NCBI RefSeq assembly: GCF_006438965.1
Contig: NZ_RCZM01000002.1
Span: 620,001 to 684,000 of the forward strand
Length of the DNA: 64,000 nucleotides
Direction: 5' to 3'
Source of the DNA: Pedococcus bigeumensis
GTDB lineage: Bacteria > Actinomycetota > Actinomycetes > Actinomycetales > Dermatophilaceae
Shown here: one piece after another, positions 44,749 through 52,419 of the stretch
Numbering within the stretch: the stretch's first letter is position 1
Layout: each line of letters begins with the position of its first letter
Position numbers and translations under genes: made by a program
Notes under the pieces: model-generated
Databases searched by the model: none
What the model saw: only the letters and a program-made list of their open reading frames with translations
What the model was told of the DNA's origin: nothing

Positions 44749-46545
44749 TCAGTCACGCTCCTCGTGGAACCGCGGGTGCTTGTCATGGTCGAGCTCGCCC
44801 GTCGCGTGGTGCTCGGACGAACGGGTCTCGGCCATGATCCGGGTCAGGGTGTCCGGGTCTGCGTAGACCCCACCGAGCTCGGATGCCTCGGGGTGGTGCA
44901 GGTCGAAGGCCGGGCGTTCCGAGCGGATCCGCGGGAGGGTGTCGAAGTTGTGCCGCGGCGGCGGGCAGGACGTGGCCCACTCGAGCGAGGCGCCGTAACC
45001 CCAAGGGTCGTCGGTCTCGACCAGGGGCGCGGTGCGCCAGGTCTTCCAGACGTTGTAGAGGAACGGCAGGGTGGACGCGGCAAGCAGGAACGCACCGGCC
45101 GTCGACACCTGGTTCATCCAGGTGAAGCCGTCCTCGGGCAGGTAGTCGGCGTACCGACGCGGCATGCCGTCCACGCCCAGCACGTGCTGGATAAGGAAGG
45201 TGGTGTGGAACCCGATGAACAGCATCCAGAAGTGGATCTTGCCGAGCGTCTCGTCGAGCATCCGCCCGGTGAACTTGGGCCACCAGAAGTAGAAGCCGGC
45301 GAACATCGCGAACACCACGGTGCCGAAGACGACGTAGTGGAAGTGAGCCACGACGAAGTAGCTGTCGGACAGGTGGAAGTCCAGGGCCGGGCTGGACAGG
45401 ATGATGCCGGTCAGGCCACCGAACAGGAAGGTGACGAGGAAGCCGATCGCCCAGAGCATCGGCGTCTCGAAGGACAGCTTGCCGCCCCACATCGTGCCGA
45501 TCCAGTTGAAGAACTTCACGCCGGTCGGGACCGCGATCAGCATGGTCATCACCGCGAAGAACGGCAGCAGCACCTGGCCGGTGGCGTACATGTGGTGGGC
45601 CCACACGGTCACCGAGAGGGCGGCGATGCCGATGGTCGCGAAGACCAGCGTCTTGTAGCCGAAGATCGGCTTGCGCGAGAACACCGGCAGGATCTCGGAG
45701 ATGATGCCGAAGAACGGCAGCGCGATGATGTAGACCTCGGGGTGGCCGAAGAACCAGAACAGGTGTTGCCAGAGCATTGGCCCACCGTTGTCGGCCTCGA
45801 AGATCTGCGCCCCGAACTTGCGGTCGGCACCGAGCGCGAGCAGCGCCGACGCCAGCACCGGGAAGGCCATCAGCACGAGCAGGCTCGTGACCAGGATGGT
45901 CCAGGTGAAGATCGGCATCCGGAACATCGTCATGCCGGGCGCGCGCATGCAGATGATCGTGGTGATGAAGTTGACGGCACCCAGGATGGTTCCGAAACCA
46001 CCGAGCGCCAGGCCGAAGACCCAGAGGTCACCGCCGAGGCCCGGGGTGTTGGACGCGTCCGACAGCGGGGAGTACGCGAACCAGCCGAACGACGCGGCAC
46101 CCGTGGGGGTGAGGAAGCCGGCGGAGGCGATCAGCCCGCCGAACAGGTAGAGCCAGTAGGCGAACATGTTCAGCCGCGGGAAGGCGACGTCGGGGGCACC
46201 GATCTGGATCGGCATGAGCGCGTTGGCGAAGCCGGCGAACAGCGGCGTCGCGAACAGCAGCAGCATGATCGTGCCGTGCATCGTGAACAGCTGGTTGAAC
46301 TGGTCGGGGTTGTCCACGACCTGCAGCCCCGGCTGGAACAGCTCGGCTCGGATCAGCAGGGCGAGGATGCCGCCGAAGATGAAGAAGATGAACGAGGTGA
46401 TGAAGTAGAGGTTGCCGATCACCTTGTGGTCGGTCGTCGACGCCCACTTCACGAAGGTCTGGCCCTTGGTGAGGCGACGGGTCGCCGTGGCCTCGGTGGA
46501 GCGGTAGTACATCCCCGCCGAGGTGGACTCGGTTGCCGCTGCCAT
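44749..46545 (-). CDS. ctaD: Cytochrome c oxidase subunit I
   Basis: A 598-residue heme-copper oxidase subunit with about twelve membrane helices. It has [19 protein letters not shown], the CuB/Tyr loop; HHMYATGQ, the CuB His pair; and further conserved [28 protein letters not shown] with the heme a3/a histidines. It reduces O2 and pumps protons. The start is ATG 46545, which overlaps the ctaC stop by one base (TGATG) with GGGAGC upstream; a longer open frame into ctaC is a shadow. The acidic C-terminal tail is short. Confidence 0.96.
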
Positions 46546-47474
46546 CAGTTGCTCCCTGCACTCGGAAGAAGGCCTTGGTCTTCGTCCATGACCTTCGAGG
46601 GGTTCAGGCTGTTGTCCAGCTGACCGGTGTTGCCCTGGGCCTTGAGCTCCGCGATGTGCTGCTCGTAGGCCGCCTGGTCGACGACCTTGACGTTGAACAG
46701 CATCTGGGAGTGGTAGGCGCCGCAGAGCTCGGCACACTTGCCCTTGAAGTCGCCGGTCTCGGTCGGGAACACCTGGAACTTGTTGACCCGCCCGGGGATC
46801 ATGTCGAGCTTCTGCAGGAACGCCGGCACCCAGAACGAGTGGATGACGTCCCGCGAGGTGAGCACGAACTCGGTCCGCTTGTTGACGGGCAGGTAGAGGG
46901 TCGGGAGGTTCTTCTCGGCGCCCGGCTTCCCCGTCAGCTCGGCCTGCGTGCCGCTCTCGAAGGTCTGCTCGTTGACGTAGTTGAAGTCCCAGCTCCACTT
47001 CTTGCCGACGACGTTGACCACGACGTCGGGGTGCTTGGAGGTGTCCAGCAGGGCCGCCTCGTCACGCGCGGTGTAGTAGAAGAGCACCGCGATCATGAAG
47101 ACCGGGACGATCGTGTAGAGGATCTCCATCGGCACGTTGTAGCGCAGCTGCACTGGCAGGGTGGTGTCGTCCTTCTTGCGGCGGTAGGCCACGACGCACC
47201 AGCCGATCAGGCCCCAGACGATGACGCCGACGATGAGCGCGGCGATCCAGGCTCCGTTCCAGAGCGTGGTCACCCGCTCCCCGCCCTGGGTCACCGCGCG
47301 GGGCAGGAAACCGTCCTGCACGCGGCCGGCACACCCCGAGAGGGTGAGGGCCACGAGCGACAGCCCTAGAGCCGTGGTCGTGCTCCTGCTGAGGGGCCGC
47401 CGCCGGTGTGGGCGCGGCGCAGAGACGTCGTGCTGACGCAACGGTGCACCTTCTTCGAAACAGTGATGGGCCAT
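46545..47474 (-). CDS. ctaC: Cytochrome c oxidase subunit II (lipoprotein)
   Basis: A 309-residue CtaC. Signal peptide with lipobox LVALTLSGC, two membrane helices ([21 protein letters not shown] and [20 protein letters not shown]) and the periplasmic-side cupredoxin domain with the CuA site HSFWVPAF...[12 protein letters not shown]. It receives electrons from QcrC. ATG 47474 gives a long leader before the lipobox; a TTG at about 47445 with GAAGGTG upstream is an alternative. A TAGGGT -10 sits 8 bases before ATG 47474. It starts the leftward ctaC-D-F operon, divergent from the NifS-like gene. Confidence 0.94.
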
Positions 47475-47536: not shown

Positions 47537-48754
47537 GTGGCGAACCCCTCCCCGGACATCGATTTGAACAGCCGAAATGACCGTTCTTTTCAGCGCACGC
47601 TCCTGGACGCCGCGCCCGGCCCGATGCACCCTCGCGCGAGGGACACCTTGGTCGCGGCCATCGACGCCGGATGGGCCGATCCGCGACGCCTGCACAGCGA
47701 GGCGAGGACGGCCCGCCGGCTGCTGGACCAGGCCCGGGAGGTGCTCGCGACCGGCCTGCAGGTGCGCCCCTCCGAGGTCTCCTTCGCGCCGGACGGCCCG
47801 ACCGCGGTCCGCTGGGTGGTCGACGGCCTCCGGTATGCCGCCCGCCGCCGCGGAGCGCGCGTCGTCGCCTCCGCGGTCGAGCACTCCTCGGTGCTGGTGC
47901 CCGGGCGGCACGCTGCCGACTCCTCGGGGGAGTCGACGGCCTTTGCGACCGTCGCGGTGGACCGGACGGGCCGGGTCGACCTCGGGGCGTGGGCGCAGGC
48001 CGTGACCGGTCCCGGCACCGTCGGGGCAGCCCTCCAGCACGCCAACGGTGAGGTCGGGACGGTGCAGCCGCTCGAGGAGGCCTGGGCCGTCTGCCGGGCT
48101 GCCGGTGTGCCGCTCGGCGTGGACGCCCAGGCATCGCTGGGCCGGACCGTCTCCCCCACCTCCTACGACGTCCTCGCGGGTGACGCCCAGTCGTGGGGCG
48201 GACCCGGCGGCCTGGGGCTGGTCGTCCTCCCCGAGCGGACCAGGTGGCTGCTTCCGGGCGCGCCGGACCCGGACGCTGCGCTGAGCGGTCCGACCCGGCA
48301 CACGCCCTGGATCCCCCTGGCCCTCGCCGCGGCCGAGGCCTGGCAGCAGACCGAGGCGACCCGCGAGGCAGACGCGCTGGAGGCGTTCGCCCTCGTGGAC
48401 CGGATCCGCGCCGCAGCGGCCGCCGTCGCCGATGTCGAGGTCGTGGGCGACCCGGTCGACCGGCTCCCCCACGTCGTGACCTTCTCGGCCCTCTACGCCG
48501 ACGGTGAGGCCCTCGTCCGCGAGCTCGACCGCCGGGGCTTCGGGGTGGCCTCCGGCTCGGCCTGCACGGCCAGCACCCTCGAACCCAGCCACGTCCTCGC
48601 GGCCATGGGCGCCCTGACCCACGGCAACATCCGCGTCACCCTCCCCCTCGGGGCGGTGGCCCCCGACCGCGCGGCGCAGGTGGCGGCCTTCTGCTCGGTC
48701 ATCGCCGAGGTGGTGGCCTCGGTCCGGGCCGAGCTGGGCGCGCACCGGCTGTGA
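47537..48754 (+). CDS. Cysteine desulfurase-like (class V aminotransferase fold) protein lacking the PLP lysine
   Basis: A 405-residue NifS/IscS-like protein. Recognisable are AVEHSSVL, HANGEVGTVQPL, GVPLGVDAQASLG, and the flexible active-site loop ASGSACTAS with its cysteine near residue 340. However, where cysteine desulfurases have (S/T)(A/G)HK followed by GGP(K/S)G, this has DAQSWGGPGGLG: the His that stacks on PLP is Gln and the Schiff-base lysine is Ser. I find no lysine anywhere in the protein, so a covalent PLP aldimine is impossible. It could be a PLP-free sulfur acceptor or scaffold. Leaderless start; overlaps the TusA-like gene by 4 bp (GTGA). Confidence 0.85.
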   Translation: MANPSPDIDLNSRNDRSFQRTLLDAAPGPMHPRARDTLVAAIDAGWADPRRLHSEARTARRLLDQAREVLATGLQVRPSEVSFAPDGPTAVRWVVDGLRYAARRRGARVVASAVEHSSVLVPGRHAADSSGESTAFATVAVDRTGRVDLGAWAQAVTGPGTVGAALQHANGEVGTVQPLEEAWAVCRAAGVPLGVDAQASLGRTVSPTSYDVLAGDAQSWGGPGGLGLVVLPERTRWLLPGAPDPDAALSGPTRHTPWIPLALAAAEAWQQTEATREADALEAFALVDRIRAAAAAVADVEVVGDPVDRLPHVVTFSALYADGEALVRELDRRGFGVASGSACTASTLEPSHVLAAMGALTHGNIRVTLPLGAVAPDRAAQVAAFCSVIAEVVASVRAELGAHRL

Positions 48755-49014
48755 GCCCGACCTTCGAGGCAGGCGACGGCCAGTCCGCGCCCATCGTCGT
48801 CGACGCCCGCGGGCTGCGGTGCCCGCTCCCCGTCATCCGACTGGCCCAGACCGCCCGCGATGCCGCAGTGGGAGCCGTCATCGAGGTGTGGGCGACCGAC
48901 CCTGCGGCCAGGGCCGACATCCCGGCGTGGTGCCGGATGCGCGGCCAGGACTTCCTCGGTGAGGTGCCCGCGGACGGCGGGCACGCGGCATACCGGGTGC
49001 GCACTGTCGGCTGA
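48751..49014 (+). CDS. TusA/SirA-like sulfurtransferase
   Basis: An 87-residue sulfur-carrier protein. VVDARGLRCPLPVIRLAQTAR is the TusA core with the persulfide cysteine of the CPxP motif; a second Cys sits in IPAWCRMRGQ, as in many TusA proteins. TusA receives sulfane sulfur from a desulfurase and passes it on, for tRNA thiolation or cofactor synthesis. GTG 48751 overlaps the preceding stop by 4 bp (GTGA), so the NifS-like protein and this carrier are made together. No TusBCD or TusE is present. Confidence 0.9.
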   Translation: MSPTFEAGDGQSAPIVVDARGLRCPLPVIRLAQTARDAAVGAVIEVWATDPAARADIPAWCRMRGQDFLGEVPADGGHAAYRVRTVG

Positions 49015-49731: not shown

Positions 49732-50718
49732 CTAGGGCGCGACGCAGGCGATGTGGGGTTCGATGGCGTCGGCCGATGCCTGGCCGTAGGCCTCCGCCAG
49801 ACGCTGCAGGAAGCTCGCCTTGCCGAGGGTGTACTCCTGCGTGCCGACCGTCTCGATGACGTAGGTCGCCAGCATGGATCCGAGCTCGGCGCTGTGCCGA
49901 AGGCCCAGGTCTGCCGCGAGGCCGGTGAGGAACCCCGCGCGGAACGCGTCGCCGACCCCGGTCGGGTCGGCGCGGCGGACCTCGCGGGCCACCGACACCT
50001 CGATGGGGTCCTCCCCCTTGCGCTCGATGGTGACGCCGTCCTTGCCCTTGGTGACCACCCGGGTGTTCACGCGGTCGGCGATCTCCGCGGCGCTCCACCC
50101 GGTCTTCTGCTCGGTCAGGGCGGCTTCGTACTCGTTGGTGAGCAGGAAGTCGGCGCCGTCGATGAGCTGGCGGATGGTCGCGCCGTCGGCGAAGGCCAGC
50201 TGCTGGCTCGGGTCCGCGGCGAACGGGATGCCGCGCGAGCGGCACTCGCGGGTGTGGCGCAGCATCGCCTCGGGGTCGTTGGCGCCGACGAGCACCAGGT
50301 CGAGACCGCCGACGCGCTCGGCGATCGGGCCGAGCTCGATGGCCCGCGCCTCACTCATCGCACCCGCGTAGAAGGTGGCGATCTGCGCCATGTCCTCGTC
50401 GGTCGTGCAGACGAAGCGAGCGGTGTGCTTGGACTCGGACGTGTGCACCGAGGCGCAGTCGACGCCGTGGCGCTCCAGCCAGCTCCGGTAGTCGCCGAAG
50501 TCCTCACCGACCGCCCCGACGAGGATCGGTCGCTGTCCGAGGTTGGCCATGCCGAACGCGATGTTGGCGGCCACCCCTCCCCGGCGGACCTCGAGGTCGT
50601 CCGCGAGGAACGACAGCGAGACCTTGTCGAGCTGCTCGACGACGAGGCTGTCGCGGAACCTGCCCTTGAAGGTCATCAGGTGGTCGGTGGCAATGGATCC
50701 CGTGATGGCTATCTGCAC
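49732..50718 (-). CDS. PfkB-family carbohydrate/nucleoside kinase
   Basis: A 328-residue ribokinase-fold enzyme: ITGSIATDHLM, RRGGVAANIAFGMANLG, GANDPEAMLRHTREC and the anion-hole/catalytic motif DPTGVGDAFRAGFL, where D is the base. The family includes ribokinase, fructokinase and adenosine kinase; the GRFRDSLV and LSFLADDLE segments resemble adenosine-kinase-like members of actinobacteria. The GTG start is supported by TAGGTT 7 bases upstream (leaderless). A PfkB gene in this position next to cta genes is common in actinobacteria. Confidence 0.92.
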   Translation of the reverse strand: MQIAITGSIATDHLMTFKGRFRDSLVVEQLDKVSLSFLADDLEVRRGGVAANIAFGMANLGQRPILVGAVGEDFGDYRSWLERHGVDCASVHTSESKHTARFVCTTDEDMAQIATFYAGAMSEARAIELGPIAERVGGLDLVLVGANDPEAMLRHTRECRSRGIPFAADPSQQLAFADGATIRQLIDGADFLLTNEYEAALTEQKTGWSAAEIADRVNTRVVTKGKDGVTIERKGEDPIEVSVAREVRRADPTGVGDAFRAGFLTGLAADLGLRHSAELGSMLATYVIETVGTQEYTLGKASFLQRLAEAYGQASADAIEPHIACVAP

Positions 50719-52026: not shown

Positions 52027-52419
52027 TCAGCTGAACGAGTCCCCGCAGGCGCACGAGCTGCCGGCGTTGGGGTTGTCGATCGTGAAGCCCTGCTTCTCGA
52101 TGGTGTCGGCGAAGTCGATGCTCGCGTCCACGAGGTACGGGGCGCTCATCCGGTCCACCACGACCTCGACACCGTCGAAGTCGCGCACGAGGTCACCGTC
52201 GAGGGTGCGCTCGTCGAAGTAGAGCTGGTAGATGAGGCCGGAGCAGCCACCGGGCTGGACTCCGACGCGCAGGCGCAGGTCGTCACGCCCCTCCTGCTCG
52301 AGCAGGGACTTGACCTTGGCAGCCGCAACATCGGAGAGGAGCACGCCGTGCGTGGTCTCGGCAGGCGCCGCGGTCGCGTCGGCGGTGGTCGCCGTAGCGG
52401 TCTGGTCCTGAACACTCAT
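52027..52419 (-). CDS. erpA: Iron-sulfur cluster insertion protein (IscA/ErpA family)
   Basis: A 130-residue A-type carrier: a disordered Ala/Thr N-terminus, then GVLLSDVAAAKVKSLLEQEG and the three cluster cysteines in GGCSGLIYQL and SSCACGDSF. It delivers Fe-S clusters to apoproteins. In this neighbourhood likely clients are NadA and the Rieske protein QcrA (inference). AAGGACTC precedes ATG 52419. It is convergent with the flavodoxin gene across a strong terminator. Confidence 0.9.
   Translation of the reverse strand: MSVQDQTATATTADATAAPAETTHGVLLSDVAAAKVKSLLEQEGRDDLRLRVGVQPGGCSGLIYQLYFDERTLDGDLVRDFDGVEVVVDRMSAPYLVDASIDFADTIEKQGFTIDNPNAGSSCACGDSFS

Follow-up and report, generated by a model that had tools for sequence, protein, structure and literature searches.

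A NifS/IscS-like protein without the PLP lysine and its TusA partner in an actinobacterial order

What does a cysteine desulfurase-like protein do when the lysine that holds its PLP is absent? The question is raised by a gene in the window, by which we mean the whole 64,000-nucleotide stretch of Pedococcus bigeumensis DNA that was analysed. The gene (47537..48754, + strand) encodes a NifS/IscS-like protein of 405 residues, none of which is lysine, and it is followed directly by a gene for a TusA-like sulfur carrier.

Cofactor-site residues of the window protein

The NifS/IscS-like gene starts with GTG, an uncertain start codon given that the match in most relatives begins near residue 15-20. 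The protein matches Pfam Aminotran_5 (8e-23; 81.4 bits against a cut-off of 21.5; profile positions 6-357 of 371). Its NCBIfam NifS score of 149 falls below the cut-off of 531 bits. The NCBIfam cut-offs are not decisive, since they also exclude orthologues that keep the lysine and the IscS-type paralogue encoded elsewhere in this genome. Sequence matches in the PDB reach 1.8e-32, and the best are the IscS-type chains 4r5f and 4eb5, both of which we take to be A. fulgidus IscS.

IscS from the E. coli genome, aligned with the window protein, served as the reference for site numbering. In this alignment Ser219 (48191..48193, + strand) occupies the position of Lys206, the Schiff-base lysine, and the former lysine site reads GDAQSWGGPGG. 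Gln183 is replaced by Ala199, Ser203 by Asp216, His205 by Gln218 and Thr76 by Pro88; Ser203, His205 and Thr76 are presumably the phosphate contacts of PLP. His104 (His116), Asp180 (Asp196) and Arg354 (Arg366) are kept. So is the persulfide cysteine Cys328 (Cys343; 48563..48565, + strand), which lies in an intact loop, VASGSACTAS, of IscS length, and the EHSSV and QHANGEVG motifs are also present. The open reading frame and this alignment confirm the initial annotation's account of a lysine-free NifS-type protein of 405 residues with Q-S at the cofactor site and an intact cysteine loop. Overall, the window protein shares with E. coli IscS the class-V aminotransferase family, the length of the cysteine loop, the Asp180 and Arg354 equivalents and a TusA partner, but it lacks Lys206, Gln183 and His205 and has Asp for Ser203.

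In the available text of a mutational study of E. coli IscS (PMC9978102), the H104Q, D180G, Q183E, K206A and C328S variants lost activity and R354K kept it. On this evidence, desulfurase activity is not expected of the window protein. It can no longer make an internal aldimine, and release of sulfur from cysteine is very improbable. The fold family, a cysteine loop of IscS length and, usually, TusA have been retained. The initial annotation had suspected a true desulfurase elsewhere in the genome, and two candidates are indeed encoded there: SufS, which scores over its cut-off, and a lysine-bearing paralogue of the IscS type. The window protein is 31-33% identical to this paralogue.

The lysine position across the order and beyond

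An orthologue (E below 1e-60) was found in 29 of 58 relative genomes, the window's own included. A sweep of 396 genomes of the order gave matches at E<=1e-60 in 111. Eight of these scored under 225 bits and were read as non-orthologues, so that by score 103 of the 396 sampled genomes have an orthologue and the majority are without one. We read 99 order-sweep loci (L150-L248), each scoring above 250 bits; genomes read before recur among them. The site lysine was present in 0 of the 99, and the loop cysteine and a long open frame in every one. One stop inside the match was flagged in eight order matches, most of which still yielded long open frames.

These 99 loci and 64 lysine-less rows from a tree set gave, once deduplicated by removing repeats (L006, L039 and L040) and identical sequences, 146 distinct lysine-less sequences. 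L037, which is partial, and L095, whose extracted domain missed the site (Ser there), lie outside this count. The lysine position is occupied by Asp in 72 of the 146, Ser in 53, Thr in 10, Ala in 8, and Val, Gly and Glu in 1 each. Equivalents of Gln183 and His205 occur in none, that of Ser203 in 8 (Asp in 113) and that of His104 in 52. The Cys328 equivalent is present in 146/146. Part of the old PLP pocket remains, since the Asp180 and Arg354 equivalents are also each present in 146/146 and that of Thr76 in 39/146. The N155 equivalent is His in 41 of the 42 lysine-keeping rows; lysine-less rows have Gly, His or another residue there. The T243 equivalent, which is Phe in 34 of the 42, carries no information.

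With the site lysine in 0/146 distinct order orthologues, loss in a single strain is ruled out, as is the sequencing error that the initial annotation had named as a possible refutation. That annotation had also raised the prospect of a Q-S pair conserved in synteny with TusA. Loss of the lysine proved general in the order and pairing with TusA widespread; the Q-S itself varies, with Asp (72/146) or Ser (53/146) predominating at the site, and several lineages are without an adjacent TusA.

The complete absence of lysine from the window protein had seemed a signal of its own. Among the 146 order sequences, total lysine is zero in 99 and 1-4 in the rest. Over the matched region of the tree set, the 42 lysine-keeping rows have 1-5 lysines and the 64 lysine-less rows none (51) or one (13), and the lysine share of eight other window genes compared is 1-5%. 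Because the lysine-keeping orthologues also carry few lysines, we rejected depletion as a separate signal and read it mostly as a family trait, which weakens this part of the earlier description. As a side observation, genome G573 has two diverged lysine-less copies (L246 and L247), one with the loop GCTC instead of GSAC.

Forty-two orthologues in the tree set keep the lysine. A sweep of the class matched 183 of 394 genomes at E<=1e-100, and 87 loci were read, 27 of them new and 60 from selected families among the matches listed, with some repeats. Among these loci the site lysine, mostly within SA(H/R)K-WGGP, is present in 82 of the 84 that lie outside the order. The orthologues of family f21, which is probably Streptomyces, keep SAHKWGGP; together with 0/146 in the order, this supports the lineage-specific loss that had been proposed. 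Beyond the order, lysine-less orthologues occur as three single cases, with His in L126 (Nocardioides AX2bis), Gln in L299 (family f24, which we take as Nocardioidaceae) and Ala in L317 (family f109). Ten Nocardioides rows, such as L136, keep the lysine and have Ala at the Gln183 equivalent, which suggests stepwise decay; such loci may represent a half-way stage.

Both of our trees were quick searches. The first groups all 64 lysine-less order rows in a single clade (SH-aLRT 99) that is nested within lysine-keeping families. The second, built by a quick method from 87 rows (30 from the order) with the site columns left out, places the order rows in two clades that form a trichotomy with Nocardioidaceae, and three changes are needed. 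If the lysine was never regained, four or more losses would be needed. Parsimony would also allow a single loss followed by a regain in Nocardioides, but this seems improbable, as it would require the remaining site residues to be restored as well. The comparison shows that the cofactor site was lost from an ancestral PLP enzyme, mainly in one lineage and in three single cases, and that the PLP pocket decayed in the lineage of the order.

The gene is under purifying selection in lysine-less genera. Its median dN/dS is 0.23 for the window's genus; two further lysine-less genera give 0.13 and 0.25, and two genera that keep the lysine 0.15-0.17. Measured against CtaD, CtaC, CbhK and ErpA, the rate of evolution is about 1.5-2.1 times higher in lysine-less than in lysine-keeping proteins (276 and 210 pairs used; loci lacking any of the five genes were skipped), which indicates that constraint has been relaxed.

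TusA and the conserved neighbourhood

The TusA-like gene (48751..49014, + strand) encodes 87 residues and starts with a GTG inside the stop of the NifS-like gene, to which it is joined by a 4-base overlap (GTGA). Its product matches Pfam TusA over the cut-off (9.4e-19), and it is the only TusA match in the genome. Cys24 of its CPLP motif (48820..48822, + strand) is equivalent to E. coli TusA Cys19, so the overlap with an intact CPxP protein stands as first described. The window TusA is like E. coli TusA in this cysteine and in the Asp45 and Asp51 equivalents, but it scores 47.9 against a cut-off of 78 for the NCBIfam equivalog and differs at Glu21, Met25 and Arg27. These are IscS-contact residues, and on the other side IscS Trp45 and Glu49 are likewise not kept. 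Equivalents of Cys19, Asp45 and Asp51 are found in 61/61 lysine-less pairs and 42/42 lysine pairs. A further cysteine, Cys61 (48931-48933; the equivalent of E. coli Cys56), occurs in 42/42 lysine-keeping pairs and has been lost in 25 of 61 lysine-less ones.

TusA adjoins or is fused to the NifS-like gene in 27 of the 29 relatives with an orthologue. The two exceptions are G044, where the sole TusA match lies inside a 909-residue frame elsewhere, and G047, where the gene is cut by a contig end and TusA matches lie in an 826-residue frame and at a contig end. Of the 29 relatives that lack the orthologue, five (G018, G023, G037, G041 and G053) have TusA, each time beside a YeeE-type gene, and this appears to be a separate TusA context. 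We rejected a YeeE-type transporter as the sulfur donor, as it is over the cut-off in just 2 of the 29 genomes with an orthologue.

Across the order the pairing is less complete. TusA was found by tblastn, within flanks of about 1.2-1.5 kb, beside 68 of the 99 order-sweep loci, and no TusA lies beside the gene in 3 of the 64 lysine-less tree rows. Adjacent TusA is missing from parts of families f10 and f9 and from Janibacter. Thirty-five genomes were without TusA in a motif scan, and 34 of them (G462 being left out) were searched again. A match was present somewhere in 27, at times inside a large frame, and none was found in 7. In G532, G559, G573, G585 and G674 the match adjoins the gene and had been missed by the motif scan. 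Since only 68 of 99 loci have TusA adjacent and 7 of 34 genomes gave no match, TusA cannot be the sole reason for retention of the gene.

TusA is also found within the same polypeptide. In the six f21 proteins whose tails were examined, TusA forms the C-terminal domain of an orthologue of the window protein. Unlike the window protein, this fusion keeps SAHK-WGGP and is probably an active desulfurase. Fusions in which the lysine is lost occur at L027, L091 and L096, which come from Nostocoides (one genome represented twice) and from an Intrasporangiaceae bacterium.

Upstream and divergent lies a CtaC-like gene (46545..47444, - strand; 5' end approximate), presumably for cytochrome oxidase subunit II. 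Two further genes often belong to the conserved neighbourhood: a pfkB-type kinase (49732..50718, - strand), presumably CbhK, and a gene (52027..52419, - strand) presumably for an Fe-S carrier of the ErpA/HesB type. Within flanks of about 1.2-1.5 kb, tblastn placed a CtaC-like gene at 97 of the 99 order-sweep loci and an ErpA-like gene at 66. In a comparison of the best 80 of at least 574 candidate loci, lysine-keeping Streptosporangiaceae, Catellatospora and Nocardioides had CtaC divergent and TusA next, followed by CbhK and ErpA. The ctaC neighbourhood, which could be taken as a sign of the service to the cytochrome oxidase that the initial annotation had considered, may thus be an old gene order, as it is conserved in lysine-keeping orthologues also. 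Formate dehydrogenase and the molybdenum cofactor were considered as obvious clients and rejected for want of a clear association: FdhD occurs in 26/29 genomes with the orthologue and 19/29 without, MoaE in 29/29 with and 25/29 without.

Candidate functions of the lysine-less protein

The best explanation, to which we give roughly an even chance, is that the window protein is a PLP-free cysteine relay or docking protein that passes persulfide to TusA. Its ancestor would have been a PLP-dependent cysteine desulfurase paired with a dedicated TusA. The loop cysteine, Cys343, would take a persulfide made elsewhere, supplied by SufS or the IscS-type paralogue, both encoded in this genome, or by a small persulfide, and would hand it to the TusA cysteine, with the protein serving as both relay and docking platform. 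In the available text on the IscS-TusA complex, Cys328 is placed about 4 Å from TusA Cys19 (PMC2854127). That loop is equally long in the window protein, with differences at several contact residues. A relay receiving its sulfur from SufS or the IscS-type paralogue is the simplest reading. Both the relay or persulfide acceptor and the partner of a true desulfurase put forward in the initial annotation would be compatible with these data. Another acceptor would have to replace TusA in lineages that are without it. If the relay reading is true, the production of sulfane sulfur and its transfer, both tasks of one desulfurase, would have been separated, and these proteins would offer natural intermediates for asking whether the cysteine loop works without PLP.

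We propose more tentatively that this desulfurase family repeatedly became cofactor-free relays, which kept the loop cysteine and a fused or adjacent TusA and received their sulfur in trans. The stages would then run from the full site in lysine-keeping orders to full loss in this order, with Nocardioides, in which Gln183 is lost and the lysine kept, as the intermediate.

The main rival is a metal or Fe-S ligand scaffold, in which the loop cysteine ligates a cluster with a partner, possibly ErpA or another carrier. The best PDB matches, 4r5f and 4eb5, are in its favour, 4eb5 carrying Asp at the lysine position, the residue found there in 72 of 146 order sequences, and A. fulgidus IscS, in the available text of PMC7585200, is inactive through a Lys-to-Asp change and contributes a cysteine as ligand. 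The presence of an ErpA-like gene near 66 of 99 order-sweep loci fits as well, and the reading gains from the persistence of the gene without TusA in several groups. However, linkage to ErpA and CtaC is also found in lysine-keeping orthologues and may be inherited gene order, no IscU-like gene was noticed by eye beside the NifS-like gene in the window's list of open reading frames, and the gene that fuses with the NifS-like gene is TusA, not a scaffold. We consider this reading rather unlikely. It is improbable that the protein instead pairs with SufS or the IscS-type paralogue, as a heterodimer or within a complex, and directs their sulfur to TusA. Both enzymes are encoded in the genome, and the Cys328 loop of the IscS-TusA complex is contributed by the other dimer subunit (available text of PMC2854127), but identity to the IscS-type paralogue is just 31-33%.

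Binding of PLP or PMP without a Schiff base, or of another small ligand, with continued action on an amino acid, is very improbable. The Asp180 and Arg354 equivalents in 146/146 would suit such binding, and the K206A variant of E. coli IscS retains some PLP (available text of PMC9978102). Against this stand the Gln183 and His205 equivalents (0/146), Ser203 (8/146) and His104 (52/146). We think it highly improbable that the gene is a functionless, decaying remnant that travels with ctaC. Faster evolution than in lysine-keeping relatives, the absence of TusA from some lineages, an orthologue in just 103 of 396 order genomes and the single stops flagged in eight order matches all point that way, but the cysteine is kept in 146/146, dN/dS is well below 1 and long open frames were found at 99/99 order-sweep loci.

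Lysine-less IscS proteins of the kind described here are already known and so are not new in themselves. Like the window protein, A. fulgidus IscS and Methanosarcina IscS1 have lost the lysine (available text of PMC7585200). A. fulgidus IscS has Asp at the site, as in 72 of 146 order sequences, and a loop cysteine is kept in both; these proteins are described there with IscU, whereas the partner gene of the window protein is TusA. What is new, within the literature searched, is a large family in actinobacteria whose loss of the lysine can be followed by comparison with syntenic orthologues that keep it and have a TusA partner. In open PMC, covered mostly at the level of search results, no work on a lysine-less NifS-like/TusA pair was noticed, and none on the f21 NifS-TusA fusion was found; in the available text of a paper on the Streptomyces oxidase (PMC7931247), no desulfurase was found under the terms for the pair. 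Genes of the lysine-less kind would easily be mistaken for cysteine desulfurases, and the catalytic lysine is absent throughout the order orthologues read. Compared with the Archaeoglobus and Methanosarcina case, loss of the lysine is traceable here among syntenic orthologues, and the Archaeoglobus exception gains a large, traceable bacterial counterpart.
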